Assembly (NCBI GenBank): GCA_025964295.1
Contig: JAOPZD010000497.1
Coordinates: 1 to 8,078, forward strand
Reading direction: 5' to 3'
Length of the DNA: 8,078 nt
From: Conexibacter sp.
Lineage (GTDB): Bacteria; Actinomycetota; Thermoleophilia; Solirubrobacterales; Solirubrobacteraceae
The notes under the pieces are model-generated. The model was given only the letters and a program-made list of their open reading frames with translations, searched no databases and was not told the DNA's origin. The position numbers and the translations under genes were made by a program. Each line of letters opens with the position of its first letter. Positions within the stretch are counted from its first letter, which is position 1. Positions 3,969-6,559 of this stretch are shown here, piece after piece.

Positions 3969-3986
3969 CCCGCCCGTGCTGGGCGC

Positions 3987-4077
3987 CTAGTTCCGGGCGT
4001 TCTTGGACTTGCCGTGCCTGGGGCGCGGCCGCGAGGCGTTTGCCGCTAATTCCGGGCGTTCTTGGACTTGCCGTGCC
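3987..4077. repeat. Partial tandem duplication of the cytochrome c 3' end (32-bp units, 59-bp period)
   Basis: Bases 3987-4018 and 4046-4077 match at 31 of 32 positions (one G/A difference at 3990/4049). The right-hand copy is the real end of the cytochrome c gene, coding (minus strand) for HGKSKNARN and its TAG stop. The left copy repeats the same tail and a TAG in a different phase, since 59 is not a multiple of three. The 27 bp between them are unrelated. It fills most of the 91-bp gap between cytochrome c and serS. Confidence 0.9.
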
Positions 4078-4462
4078 CGGCGTACTTCGCGAGGAAGTCG
4101 GCCACCTGCTCGGCCTCCTTGCCGACCACGATGTCCTGGGGCATGATCGCGCCGGAGAAGCCGCCGTTGCGGATCGCGTACAGGATGCTCTGGCGATCCT
4201 CCTTGCGGACGTTGAAGTTCGGGCCGTCGACGCGCTCGCGGTCCTTGACCTTCAGCGCGCCGCCCTCGGCGCCGACGACGCCGAGCGTGTGGCAGCCCGA
4301 GCAGCGGTCCACGAAGAGCTTCGCGCCGGCCTGGTACTGGGGGTCCACCGTCGGGACCGTCGCGTTCGGCTGCTTGACGTCGCCCTTCTCCTGACCGCAG
4401 CCGATGACGCCGGCAGCGGCGATCGAAAGGGCGGCGAGGACGGTGAGAGGACGGCGACTCAT
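4046..4462 (-). CDS. Monoheme class I cytochrome c lipoprotein
   Basis: The 138-residue product starts with a lipoprotein signal: MSRRPL, a hydrophobic run, then V-I-G-C with lipidation at Cys22, so it should sit on the outer face of the membrane. A linker rich in Pro/Thr/Gln leads to one c-type heme domain with CSGCH (Cys54, Cys57, His58) and a likely axial Met107 in the segment GAIMPQD, as in class I cytochromes c. It ends in a basic tail GHGKSKNARN. It probably carries electrons between membrane complexes; donor and acceptor cannot be read from the sequence. The frame is open further upstream, and ATGs at 4477, 4474 and 4492 are alternatives; I prefer 4462 because it gives a normal short n-region and follows TATGAT by ten bases. 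It is divergent from a copper-protein gene, which suggests shared control. Confidence 0.88.
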   Translation of the reverse strand: MSRRPLTVLAALSIAAAGVIGCGQEKGDVKQPNATVPTVDPQYQAGAKLFVDRCSGCHTLGVVGAEGGALKVKDRERVDGPNFNVRKEDRQSILYAIRNGGFSGAIMPQDIVVGKEAEQVADFLAKYAGHGKSKNARN

Positions 4463-4490: not shown

Positions 4491-4886
4491 ATGCGCAGGC
4501 TTGCCGCCCTCCTCATTCTGGGCGCGACGACCCTCGTGGGGTGCGGCGGCGGACCGTCGTACACCCACGCCCGGGGCGGCGTGCTGAAGATCGACCTCGA
4601 CGAGTACCGCCTCCGGCCCGAGAACATCGAGGTCCCGGCGGGCCCCATCCACCTCGAAGTGACCAACTCCGGTCGCCTCACCCACAACCTCGCGATCGAG
4701 TCGCCCGACCCGGCCAGCGGCGAGGAGCCGACCCTCTACGGCCGCACCGACACCCTGCATCCGGGCGAGCACGGCACCGAGCGCGCGCCGATCACGCTCA
4801 AGCCCGGCAAGTACCGCCTGACCTGCACGATCGGCAACCACGACGACCTCGGCCAGTACGGCGAGCTCAAGGTCGTCGCCAAGTAG
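4491..4886 (+). CDS. Cupredoxin-like copper lipoprotein
   Basis: This 131-residue protein begins MRRLAALLILGATTLVGC, a lipoprotein signal with lipobox L-V-G-C and lipidation at Cys18, so it should be anchored outside the membrane. The rest is a small beta sandwich of the plastocyanin/azurin type: residues about 31-62 (VLKIDLDEYRLRP...IHLEVTNSG), copper ligand His65 in LTHNLAI, and the C-terminal loop with Cys112 and His117 (C-x4-H). Where the axial methionine normally stands (H-x3-G-M) there is Gln122 (HDDLGQ). Single-electron transfer or copper binding is the expected role. The start is the ATG that gives the lipoprotein signal; the frame extends upstream but overlaps the divergent cytochrome c gene, its likely redox neighbour. 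A hairpin follows the stop by 7 bp. Cupredoxin fold is likely; electron transfer as opposed to copper storage is inferred. Confidence 0.82.
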   Translation: MRRLAALLILGATTLVGCGGGPSYTHARGGVLKIDLDEYRLRPENIEVPAGPIHLEVTNSGRLTHNLAIESPDPASGEEPTLYGRTDTLHPGEHGTERAPITLKPGKYRLTCTIGNHDDLGQYGELKVVAK

Positions 4887-4893
4887 ACGCCTG

Positions 4894-4919
4894 GGGGCGA
4901 GTCCTGGCTCGTTCGCCCC
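4894..4919 (+). terminator. Hairpin after the cupredoxin gene, possible terminator
   Basis: GGGGCGA (4894-4900) pairs perfectly with TCGCCCC (4913-4919), leaving a 12-nt loop that can close further through GAG/CTC. It starts 7 bp after the TAG stop and has no T-run, as is common in high-GC actinobacteria. Its right arm is shared with the repeat that precedes the next gene. Confidence 0.5.
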
Positions 4920-4954
4920 TAACCCGCGACATGGGCGGGTTCGACGCGATCGAG
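4907..4954. repeat. Palindromic repeat, upstream (degenerate) copy, overlapping the start of the DUF559 gene
   Basis: These 48 bp align without gaps to 5836-5883 with 40 identities; four of the eight differences are clustered at 4917-4920. The core AACCCGC (4921-4927) and GCGGGTT (4935-4941) still form a 7-bp stem, but the outer arms pair at only 9 of 13 positions, so the palindrome has decayed here. The ATG at 4931 of the nuclease-like gene lies in the loop, and the right arm codes for its first residues, MGGFDAIE. Confidence 0.85.
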
Positions 4955-5833
4955 TTGGAGATCCAGGCGCTGGCGGCACGGCAGCACGGACTGGCAGCCC
5001 GTCGTCAGCTGCTCGCCCTCGGTCTCGGCCAGGACGCCATCGACCACCGGCTCGCCAGCGGCCGGCTCGTGAAGATCCAGCGTGGCGTCTACGCGCTCGG
5101 CCACGCCCAGCTGCGTCGCGAGGGCAGCATGCTCGCAGTCGTCCTCGCCTCCGGCGTGGCGGCCGTCGCCAGCCACCGCAGCGCGGCCGCCCTGTGGGGG
5201 CTTCGCTCCTGGAGCGGCGCGTTCGTCGAGGTCACCGCGCCCGGGCGCGGTGGCACGATGAAGCGACGCGGCCGGCTGGTCCACCGGTCGCTCGATCTCC
5301 CGGGCAGCGAGATCGCGATCGAGCGCGGCGTACCGACTACGACCGTGGCTCGCACGCTGATCGATCTCGCCGCCGTGGTCCCAGCCCACCACCTCCGGCG
5401 AGCCGTCGAGCGTGCCGAGCTGTTCGACCTCGTCGCCGTCCGTCGCGTCCTCGATGCCCACCCGGGCCGTCCCGGCCGGAGGGCGCTCACCGCGTTGCTG
5501 GCCGACTTCCACGATCACGGAGACGCCCACACGCGCAGCGACCTGGAGGCGCTGCTCCTTCAGCTCTGCCTCGACCACGACCTGCCCCGGCCCGAGGTCA
5601 ACCGCTACGACGGCGTCCGCGAGAGCGACTTCCGTTGGCCGAACCACCGCCTCATCGTCGAAGTCGACAGCTGGACCTTCCACGGCCGCACCCGCCGCGC
5701 GTTCGATGGCGACCGTGCCCGCGACCGCGCGCTGCTCCGGGAGGGCTGGCGCGTGGCGCGCTTCACCGACCGTCAGATCCTCGCCGACCCCGCTGGGATC
5801 GCGGCCGAGATCCGCCTGCTCATCGCCGGCTGA
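4931..5833 (+). CDS. AbiEi-like N-terminal domain fused to DUF559/Vsr-like endonuclease fold
   Basis: The 300-residue protein has two recognisable parts. Residues about 9-56 (LEIQALAARQHGLAARRQLLALGL...GRLVKIQRGVYALG) match the winged-helix N-terminal domain of AbiEi-type antitoxins. Residues about 200-297 resemble DUF559, a relative of Vsr and other PD-(D/E)XK nucleases: Glu206, Asp233 in ESDFRW, then IVEVDSWTFH with Glu244 and Asp246, and the closing GWRVARFTDRQI. The middle (57-199) is the linker region seen in this actinobacterial family. DNA binding and possibly cleavage are inferred from the folds; to my knowledge function is unproven. No AbiEii toxin gene is adjacent, so it is an orphan. 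ATG 4931 puts 20 residues before the AARQHG helix, a usual length; earlier in-frame sequence overlaps the cupredoxin gene. No Shine-Dalgarno is visible. Palindromic repeats flank it on both sides. Confidence 0.85.
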   Translation: MGGFDAIELEIQALAARQHGLAARRQLLALGLGQDAIDHRLASGRLVKIQRGVYALGHAQLRREGSMLAVVLASGVAAVASHRSAAALWGLRSWSGAFVEVTAPGRGGTMKRRGRLVHRSLDLPGSEIAIERGVPTTTVARTLIDLAAVVPAHHLRRAVERAELFDLVAVRRVLDAHPGRPGRRALTALLADFHDHGDAHTRSDLEALLLQLCLDHDLPRPEVNRYDGVRESDFRWPNHRLIVEVDSWTFHGRTRRAFDGDRARDRALLREGWRVARFTDRQILADPAGIAAEIRLLIAG

Positions 5834-5886
5834 TCGCTCGTTCGCGTGGAACCCGCGATATGCGCGGGTTCTACGCGAACGAGCGA
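5834..5886. repeat. Palindromic repeat, downstream copy: 24-bp hairpin
   Basis: Starting one base after the TGA stop, 5834-5857 is the reverse complement of 5863-5886 at 23 of 24 positions. The single exception, 5848/5872, would be a G-U pair in RNA. The loop is only five bases (ATATG). It is far stronger than needed for termination, though it may well end transcription of the upstream gene. Read from either strand the arm encodes a peptide like RGF-Y/H-ANER, which is a by-product of the palindrome and not a gene. Confidence 0.93.
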
Positions 5887-5949
5887 CCCGTCCTTCCTCG
5901 AGGTCGTCGCCGCGCAGGGAAAGTGACGTCCGGCGCGAACTGAACACGC

Positions 5950-6039
5950 GACGCGGGCGCCGACCTCGATTCCGATCGCTCTTTTCGACGTTCACGCGAT
6001 CGCTCTCGATACGGCGGCAACCTGGTCGGCGCCCGCGTC
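5950..6039. repeat. Perfect 16-bp inverted repeat around a 58-bp centre
   Basis: GACGCGGGCGCCGACC (5950-5965) is the exact reverse complement of 6024-6039. Inside, CGATCGC (5973-5979) can pair with GCGATCG (5996-6002), giving a nested stem, and the 10-mer CGATCGCTCT occurs twice (5973-5982, 5997-6006). The centre includes a TTTT run, rare here. Arm centres are 74 bp apart. The right arm lies just upstream of the candidate -10 of the flavin reductase gene. No target-site duplication is evident next to the arms. It could be a structured RNA, a small mobile element or an operator pair. Confidence 0.85.
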
Positions 6040-6041
6040 TC

Positions 6042-6047
6042 TACCCT
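6042..6047 (+). promoter_or_regulatory. Candidate -10 box of the flavin reductase gene (leaderless)
   Basis: TACCCT is followed by eight bases and the ATG at 6056, the same geometry as at serS, and there is no Shine-Dalgarno sequence. The right arm of the long inverted repeat (6024-6039) would occupy the spacer between -35 and -10, so a protein bound there could block the promoter. Confidence 0.35.
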
Positions 6048-6055
6048 TCCGCACG

Positions 6056-6559
6056 ATGGAGGCGCCGCCCGCAGTCGACCCGGCCCGCTACCGAGACGTC
6101 ATCGGGAGCTTCGCGACCGGCGTCGCGATCGTCACCGCCCACGGCGACGACGGGCCGGCCGGCCTGACGACCAACGCGGTCACCAGCCTCTCGCTCGACC
6201 CGCTGCAGCTGCTCGTCTGCTTCGACAACGCGTCGCGGACGCTGCCGATCGTCCGCCAGGCCGGCCGCTTCGCCGTCAACGTGCTGCGCGCCGGCCAGGA
6301 GGACCTCGCCCGCCTCTTCGCCTCCAAGGCGATCGCCGAGGAGAAGTTCGAGGCCGCGACGCACACCGTCGCCCACGGCGTCCCCGTCCTGGACGACGCG
6401 CTGGCCTGGATCGCCTGCGACGTCGAGGCGCTGCACCCGGCCGGCGACCACACCGTCGGCATCGGCCGCGTGACCCACCTCAGCGCCGAGGCCGGCGGCG
6501 ACCCGCTGCTGTTCTTCCGCGGGCGCTTCGGGCGCCTCTGCCCGCCGTCAGAATCCTGA
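6056..6559 (+). CDS. Flavin reductase-like domain protein (FMN-binding split barrel)
   Basis: At 167 residues this has the full length of the flavin reductase-like family, whose members bind FMN or FAD and reduce flavin with NAD(P)H, often to supply a two-component monooxygenase. Family marks in order are FATGVAIVTAHG (19-30), PAGLTTNAVTSLSLDPLQLLVCFDNASRT (flavin-binding segment, about 34-62), FAVNVL (72-77), the conserved aromatic/basic region EEKFEA (95-100), GDHTVGIGRV (131-140), and the C-terminal PLLFFRGRFGRL. No partner oxygenase is in the window, so its substrate is unknown, and a heme- or cofactor-handling role is also possible in this family. It is cytoplasmic, with no signal or membrane segment. 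The ATG is the first good start, gives the normal N-terminus and follows a TACCCT box by eight bases. It converges with the membrane protein gene at a shared hairpin. Confidence 0.92.
   Translation: MEAPPAVDPARYRDVIGSFATGVAIVTAHGDDGPAGLTTNAVTSLSLDPLQLLVCFDNASRTLPIVRQAGRFAVNVLRAGQEDLARLFASKAIAEEKFEAATHTVAHGVPVLDDALAWIACDVEALHPAGDHTVGIGRVTHLSAEAGGDPLLFFRGRFGRLCPPSES

Follow-up and report, generated by a model that had tools for sequence, protein, structure and literature searches.

The closest described gene-repeat systems are the REP/RAYT pairs called REPtrons, in which, according to two papers (PMC8266576, PMC3733652), short palindromes lie mainly between genes, flank the gene, are specific to that gene where several families coexist and are sometimes clustered. 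In the same papers, the RAYTs are the proposed movers of the REPs (PMC8266576, PMC3733652), and CGTC-tagged REPs are described as dispersed palindromes having neither a RAYT partner nor a dedicated transposase gene (PMC3733652). A DNA-binding protein of another kind, AbiEi of S. agalactiae, acts on its own promoter, where two monomers bind a pair of 23-bp inverted repeats with a 3-bp spacer (PMC7319586).

We have analyzed a stretch of 8,078 nucleotides from Conexibacter sp. (contig JAOPZD010000497.1; hereafter, the window), in which a gene for an AbiEi-type protein with a nuclease domain is bracketed by two copies of a palindrome. This gene and its palindrome most likely represent a RAYT/REP-like partnership that is built on an unrelated nuclease. 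Like the palindromes of REPtrons, which have a length of 20-50 nt and many, mostly extragenic copies, those described here are dispersed and extragenic (in the relatives), flank the gene and are paralog-specific. The enzyme, however, is AbiEi plus an EDxHD nuclease instead of the HUH/Y1 tyrosine transposase (TnpAREP) that REPtrons encode between the repeats; furthermore, the GTAG tag conserved beside the palindromes of REPtrons was not seen by eye in the consensuses and flanks of four families, the start codon lies within the 5' palindrome, and the half-site pattern suggests recognition of double-stranded DNA. The CGTC-tagged REPs are likewise dispersed without a RAYT partner, but their tag is different, and a partner gene is identified here.

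In terms of the protein, the N-terminal fold with its winged helix resembles AbiEi of the type IV AbiE system (6y8q), and the operator of the latter (23+3+23; PMC7319586) is close to the 24+5+24 arrangement of the 3' copy in the window. The position is also AbiE-like, given that palindromes of 37-53 bp lie over the start codon in all eight paralogs of Conexibacter arvalis. Unlike in AbiE, no AbiEii is found among the three neighbors, a nuclease domain is added, and the operator-like sequence is dispersed over the genome in relatives. The C-terminal fold resembles I-Bth0305I (3r3p) and, more weakly, Vsr (1cw0), including conserved acidic/histidine residues; unlike EDxHD homing endonucleases, nonetheless, the gene is free-standing in the chromosome with no intron or intein, the nuclease is fused to AbiEi, and the cognate repeat is a dispersed palindrome. 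Because the REPtron enzyme, the toxin and the homing setting are missing, we classify the system as neither REPtron, AbiE nor homing endonuclease. In the open-access literature, we found no prior report on AbiEi/DUF559 genes with dispersed palindromes, which does not prove that none exists; given this and an unrelated enzyme, we judge the system to be a new kind of gene-repeat partnership rather than a variant of the REP type. If this is true, a second, unrelated class of enzymes is tied one-to-one to dispersed palindromes, REP-like repeats will have evolved more than once, and repressors of the toxin-antitoxin type as well as homing nucleases become linked to the spread of repeats. The paralogous protein-palindrome pairs (eight in C. 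arvalis) would also provide natural sets from which the DNA-recognition code of AbiEi proteins could ideally be deciphered.

The AbiEi-nuclease gene and the palindromes at its borders

The start of the gene was placed at the ATG that is used in the homologs and in the original prediction, while the listed open reading frame opens further upstream. Pfam families matched by the protein were solely of the AbiEi and DUF559/REase types, namely AbiEi_4 at the N terminus (E 7.5e-9) and DUF559 at the C terminus (residues 233-296, E 9.7e-7); the AbiEi models of PADLOC cover residues 11-185 (E 1.5e-24), and an NCBIfam scan gave no match. The best homologs exhibit 96% and 79% identity. When the protein was modeled with AlphaFold2 (mean pLDDT 86.4, pTM 0.63), the top match of the model in Foldseek was AbiEi (6y8q; E 4.5e-6, target TM 0.65, 198 alignment columns), and the nuclease part was matched by the catalytic domain of I-Bth0305I (3r3p; E 9.9e-4, target TM 0.79) and less strongly by Vsr (1cw0; E 0.012). 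Among 98 homologs, the residues that we take to be those of the EDxHD motif are kept in 98 (E206), 96 (D233), 95 (E244), 92 (D246), 97 (H251) and 97 (D261), and given this conservation of the catalytic residues, the nuclease domain is predicted to be probably active. No gene for the AbiEii toxin (DUF1814) was detected among the three neighbors scanned, which match cytochrome c, a cupredoxin-like domain and flavin reductase. Both in the window and in its closest relative (G015), the AbiEi-DUF559 gene is free-standing between the cupredoxin-like and flavin reductase genes. The family is multi-copy, with 2-13 matches per genome in ten relatives, some of which are fragments.

Features of the AbiEi-DUF559 locus in the window (boundaries of the two protein parts are approximate)
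Feature	Position	Strand	Remarks
GGGGCGAG element, GGGGHGAR class	4894..4901	+	Motif counts in homologs
5' palindrome copy	4907..4954	+	Partly decayed; over the start codon, operator-like position
AbiEi-DUF559 gene	4931..5833	+	300 aa; ORF frame, Pfam, PADLOC, homologs
AbiEi-like part	4931..5500	+	About residues 1-190; winged helix and AbiEi core; Foldseek and PADLOC
EDxHD/Vsr-like nuclease domain	5528..5818	+	About residues 200-296; DUF559 and Foldseek
3' palindrome copy	5834..5886	+	Near-perfect

The original prediction held that the gene is bracketed by two copies of a repeat, and indeed 40 of 48 bases are identical when 4907-4954 and 5836-5883 are aligned in the same orientation; no other pair of 48-mers in the window with a distance of 48 bases or more matches as well. 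The runner-up pair, at 3970/4029, has 38 matches, and the best pairs in five triplet-shuffled windows have 32-36. As predicted, the 5' copy includes the start codon (4931), whereas the placement of the other copy one base after the stop codon was slightly off; the stop codon occupies 5831-5833, the palindrome begins at 5834, and its 48-bp match to the 5' copy begins at 5836. The two 24-nt arms of the 3' copy are 96% complementary around a 5-nt center, ATATG. As single-stranded DNA of the + strand, the 3' copy has a hairpin z of -9.65 and the 5' copy of only -1.75, and the 5' copy is thus decayed as a palindrome, in line with the earlier description of both copies.

An Rfam search over 4880-6100 returned nothing at the gathering score, and sub-threshold matches resembling miRNA were dismissed as a mere reflection of the long hairpin. 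For the 22-mer at the core of the window palindrome, there was no exact match in the genome contig collection; when the palindrome was searched in 146 genomes (the family of G001), with apparently at most six candidates scored per genome, the one weak match, in G017, was taken as chance.

Palindrome families in related genomes

The closest relative, G015, shares the locus with 80% DNA identity over 3.9 kb and 79% identity in the protein, and its two palindrome copies match each other and differ from those of the window. The 3' copy in G015 is in frame at the end of the gene, and the terminal peptide of a Baekduia alba protein (P0004), compared by eye, is that encoded by this copy. This pairing between the two ends of the gene was then scored over 83 loci (82 relatives and the window; 81 distinct genes, since two are present twice), where every 5' flank was compared with all 3' flanks. 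The own 3' flank was the top match in 27 of the 83 loci and not in the other 56, and the mean score was 18.5 for matched and 11.2 for mismatched flanks. Among 98 distinct homologs, furthermore, 24 have a palindrome with a score of at least 15 in the start region, 11 have one at the 3' end and 29 have one at either place, compared with 4/980 random flank windows and 0/294 gene-body windows. With a score of at least 13, a palindrome was found at either end in 41 homologs (controls, 9/980 and 1/294); the palindrome is hence common but not universal, because 57 of the 98 homologs have none at this score at either end. In loci labeled Acidimicrobiales/Acidimicrobiia/Microthrixaceae (L055-L057, L072), the 5' copy is situated further upstream.

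In each arm of the palindrome, two conserved blocks, one outer and one inner, are separated by a gap that varies. GGTC N2-8 GACC occurs in 8 of 41 gene palindromes, while 0.8 would be expected from shuffled arms, and is a possible shared inner contact. The similarity of the proteins correlates weakly with that of the palindromes, mainly above 55% identity (permutations reaching the observed value among 500: full length, 74; nuclease part, 95; helix-turn-helix part, 18). Covariation between the arms, which is an indirect sign at most with regard to the REPtron type of processing of a single-stranded hairpin, was weak, with the observed changes on both sides reached by 8 (G001), 486 (G021) and 68 (G032) of 1000 shuffles; selection of a hairpin by compensatory change is weakly supported by covariation in these three genomes and was not adopted.

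According to the original prediction, a gene-repeat system should be accompanied by many copies of the repeat, and dispersed palindromes were indeed found in relatives (G015, G021, G001, G032 and G151); the four that were cross-searched had no match at E<1e-3 in any of the other genomes searched. Counted as distinct places at E<1e-3, including gene-adjacent ones, the palindrome of G015 occurs at 10 places in its own genome and at none in five others (best E 0.027), that of G021 at 18 places and at none in five others (best E 0.083), and that of G151, a MAG labeled Microthrixaceae, at 8 places and at none in three others (best E 0.014). One palindrome of C. arvalis (G001) occurs at 19 places in G001, and five other genomes have no match up to E 0.05. 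For G032, which was searched alone with a 201-bp query containing two copies, at least 30 rows fell below 1e-3 among the best 40 of 390 candidates scored, with two overlapping pairs of rows and a few weak rows that look coding. The copy number in relatives is thus in the tens, not hundreds. Among the copies listed, 13/18 in G021, 4/6 in G015 and 16/29 in G032 lie between genes, as compared with 3-10% of background windows, where the coding/intergenic split depends on a crude ORF caller with a GC3 rule and some of the "coding" calls are probably spurious.

The flanks of the copies in G015 (L140-L154) and G021 (L162-L181) contain, by eye, recurrent ATTCGGGGCCGAAT-like and CAACGGTGCATTTGGG-like motifs, as in mosaic BIMEs. 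In G032, five palindrome copies (L117-L119, L124, L105) form a regular array at C1:3164624-3164996 with starts 73-82 bp apart.

The pairing of paralog and repeat was followed in C. arvalis, for which the sample was 1.12 Mb plus four paralog loci outside it. All eight paralogs carry a distinct palindrome of 37-53 bp over the start codon, and four of the eight have a matched 3' copy. For seven of the eight palindromes, there are solo copies away from the genes, 29 in total (1, 2, 5, 5, 6, 7 and 3), with none for C2b, while eight control palindromes with shuffled arms had no match in the sample. With the same crude ORF caller, 22 of the 29 solo copies are intergenic, compared with 682 of 4000 points placed at random (binomial P 6e-12). 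When the sample was searched de novo for palindromes, eight clusters of at least three members emerged, of which six include the start palindrome of a paralog and one resembles the palindrome of C2b (3 of 1000 shuffles reach the score); the eighth, with 11 or 12 members depending on the run, consists of GC-rich sequence of low complexity and was not counted as a family. In three order-5 Markov controls, 60-72 palindromes were detected and none formed a cluster of at least three, versus 196 palindromes and 7 clusters in the same real sequence. The link to DUF559 genes that had been anticipated for the repeat is therefore seen in C. arvalis, where the seven de novo families all trace to AbiEi-DUF559 paralogs, one of them by weaker similarity.

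Turnover at orthologous sites and competing explanations

We examined four solo sites of C. arvalis, two of which had usable orthologous flanks; for those at C2:183452 and C4:294080, no interpretable orthologous gap was found. The comparison comprised twenty paralogs from four genomes (eight from G001, two from G002, four from G003 and six from G037), leaving out presumed duplicates on contigs equal in length to those of genes already included (L029, L014 and L016), a fragment in G002 (L296) and a weak match on C47 of G003. At site A (G001 C2:185234), palindrome-like sequence is present in three Conexibacter genomes, although degraded in G002, and scores against the genes of the resident genome are 29 (G001), 31 (G002) and 45 (G003), versus 15, 14 and 22 for the best gene of the other genomes. 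At site B (G001 C4:299483), the palindromes of G001 and G037 match their own genes (37 and 39; best foreign gene, 18 and 24), and G002 and G003 are at background (15 and 14), with no palindrome in the former and a GC-rich hairpin in the latter, as judged by eye. Shuffled sites scored at most 17-21. At the two sites, each of the five occupied alleles thus has its match in a gene from the genome in which it resides. The original prediction had looked for empty sites in close relatives, and what the other Conexibacter genomes have at the orthologous site is either no palindrome or one matching their own gene. At the solo sites, neither a target-site duplication nor a precise insertion junction was resolved.

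In terms of sequence, therefore, the palindromes of the relatives are paired with individual paralogs, dispersed, extragenic and specific to their genome, with turnover at two orthologous sites, and the active site of the protein is conserved; the suggestion of a RAYT/REP-like pair with a nuclease gains support from dispersal, genome specificity, one-to-one linkage with paralogs and the orthologous sites. We favor, with a probability of roughly 0.6, the explanation that gene and palindrome constitute one gene-repeat system, in which an AbiEi-type protein with a nuclease binds the palindrome, is autoregulated through it and seeds it. The palindrome, with a length of 37-53 bp where this was measured, would be bound in double-stranded form by two monomers, each occupying one arm, like AbiEi on its operator, and the copy at the start codon would place the gene under its own control. 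Elsewhere in the genome, the same palindrome would be seeded between genes; the nuclease might cut at or near the bound site, and host repair would then add copies or overwrite the palindromes of rival paralogs. The specificity of the protein and the palindrome would drift jointly, resulting in a private repeat family for each paralog. Of these steps, recognition of the own palindrome by the protein is strongly implied, and so is the earlier idea that the protein recognizes or is controlled by the repeat; binding to the start-codon copy with autorepression is likely from the established behavior of AbiEi. That the protein moves the repeat, as was also proposed, is less direct: from the dispersal, the private families, the turnover at sites and the conservation of the active site, we infer that the nuclease may disperse or overwrite the repeat, and binding, autoregulation, cleavage and enzyme-driven dispersal are all to be read in this conditional sense. 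We are evenly divided on the broader proposal of a RAYT-independent REP system, where the AbiEi-nuclease fusion would write its operator-like palindrome into intergenic sites and overwrite those of rivals, and several enzymes with private families would compete on one chromosome, accounting for the dispersed families of the sample.

The main rival is that the protein only binds, i.e., it is an AbiEi-like autorepressor with extra operator sites for a regulon, chromosome organization or titration, which come and go through ordinary mutation and recombination while the nuclease does other work. The operator-like position and the AbiEi geometry would agree with this, and recognition of double-stranded DNA is suggested by the conserved outer and inner blocks together with the scarcity of covariation in G021 and G032. 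It is nonetheless hard to see how point mutation would produce 37-53 bp palindromes that occur at as many as 19 places in a family and are private to each paralog, and unrelated palindromes occupy one orthologous site. Furthermore, only 3 of the 22 intergenic solo copies lie between divergent genes, compared with 112 of 481 gaps (a modest depletion), and the nuclease residues are kept in 92-98 of 98 homologs; we consider binding alone to be a doubtful, though serious, explanation. Placement relative to transcription also bears on whether the palindromes might be transcription terminators or mRNA hairpins unlinked to the protein, as the 3' copy directly follows the stop codon and 8 of the 22 intergenic copies lie between convergent genes. 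The start-codon copy and the paralog-specific match would then be unexplained, and the matched 5' copies contradict this reading, which we find scarcely credible.

Alternatively, a RAYT or some other transposase could move the palindromes, which would then be ordinary REPs or MITE-like elements that merely flank the AbiEi-DUF559 genes. The REP-like size, extragenic placement and clusters of the palindromes would fit, and a search of nine relatives for transposases of the Y1_Tnp class (the RAYT domain) hit one each in G015, the closest relative of the window, and G021 and two in G020. However, no Y1_Tnp match was found in the other six of the nine genomes (G001, G002, G003, G005, G016 and G032; some are drafts), and RAYTs are unlikely as a general cause because these six include G001 and G032; the de novo families of G001 trace to AbiEi-DUF559 paralogs, and the start-codon palindrome is present in 8/8 paralogs of C. 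arvalis, so that we regard this alternative as very unlikely. The gene could also move together with both palindromes as a mobile or homing element of which the palindromes are the ends, as would be suggested by the bracketing with matched copies and by the resemblance of the nuclease fold to the homing endonuclease I-Bth0305I. Yet the gene is at the same locus in the window and G015 within 3.9 kb of 80% identical DNA, no two paralogs compared within the same genome exceed 67% identity, and there are more solo palindromes than genes (29 versus 8 in the C. arvalis sample); mobility of the whole unit is therefore highly improbable.

Other elements of the window

A motif of the GGGGHGAR class, which is represented in the window by GGGGCGAG, was found at -65..-20 in 30 of 98 homologs, 36-61 nt upstream of the start codon, compared with 15 of 1603 control windows. 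It was absent within 40 bp of the dispersed palindrome copies at all 29 sites of the G001 sample. The element is probably a promoter or leader element. In one paper on REPs, a GGGGWSAS motif is described in inverted repeats around tyrosine transposase genes (PMC3733652).

Downstream of the AbiEi-DUF559 gene, 5950-6039 forms an inverted repeat with 25-nt arms, 84% complementary and 40 nt apart, upstream of the flavin reductase gene; it is kept in G015 and is a possible RNA element, with no Rfam match listed. At the 3' end of the cytochrome c gene, a 35-bp direct repeat (3987-4021 and 4046-4080; 94% identity, spacing 59 bp) looks like a recent local duplication. An ordinary tRNA-Ser gene with the anticodon tga is located at 571-658, between the first two large open reading frames.
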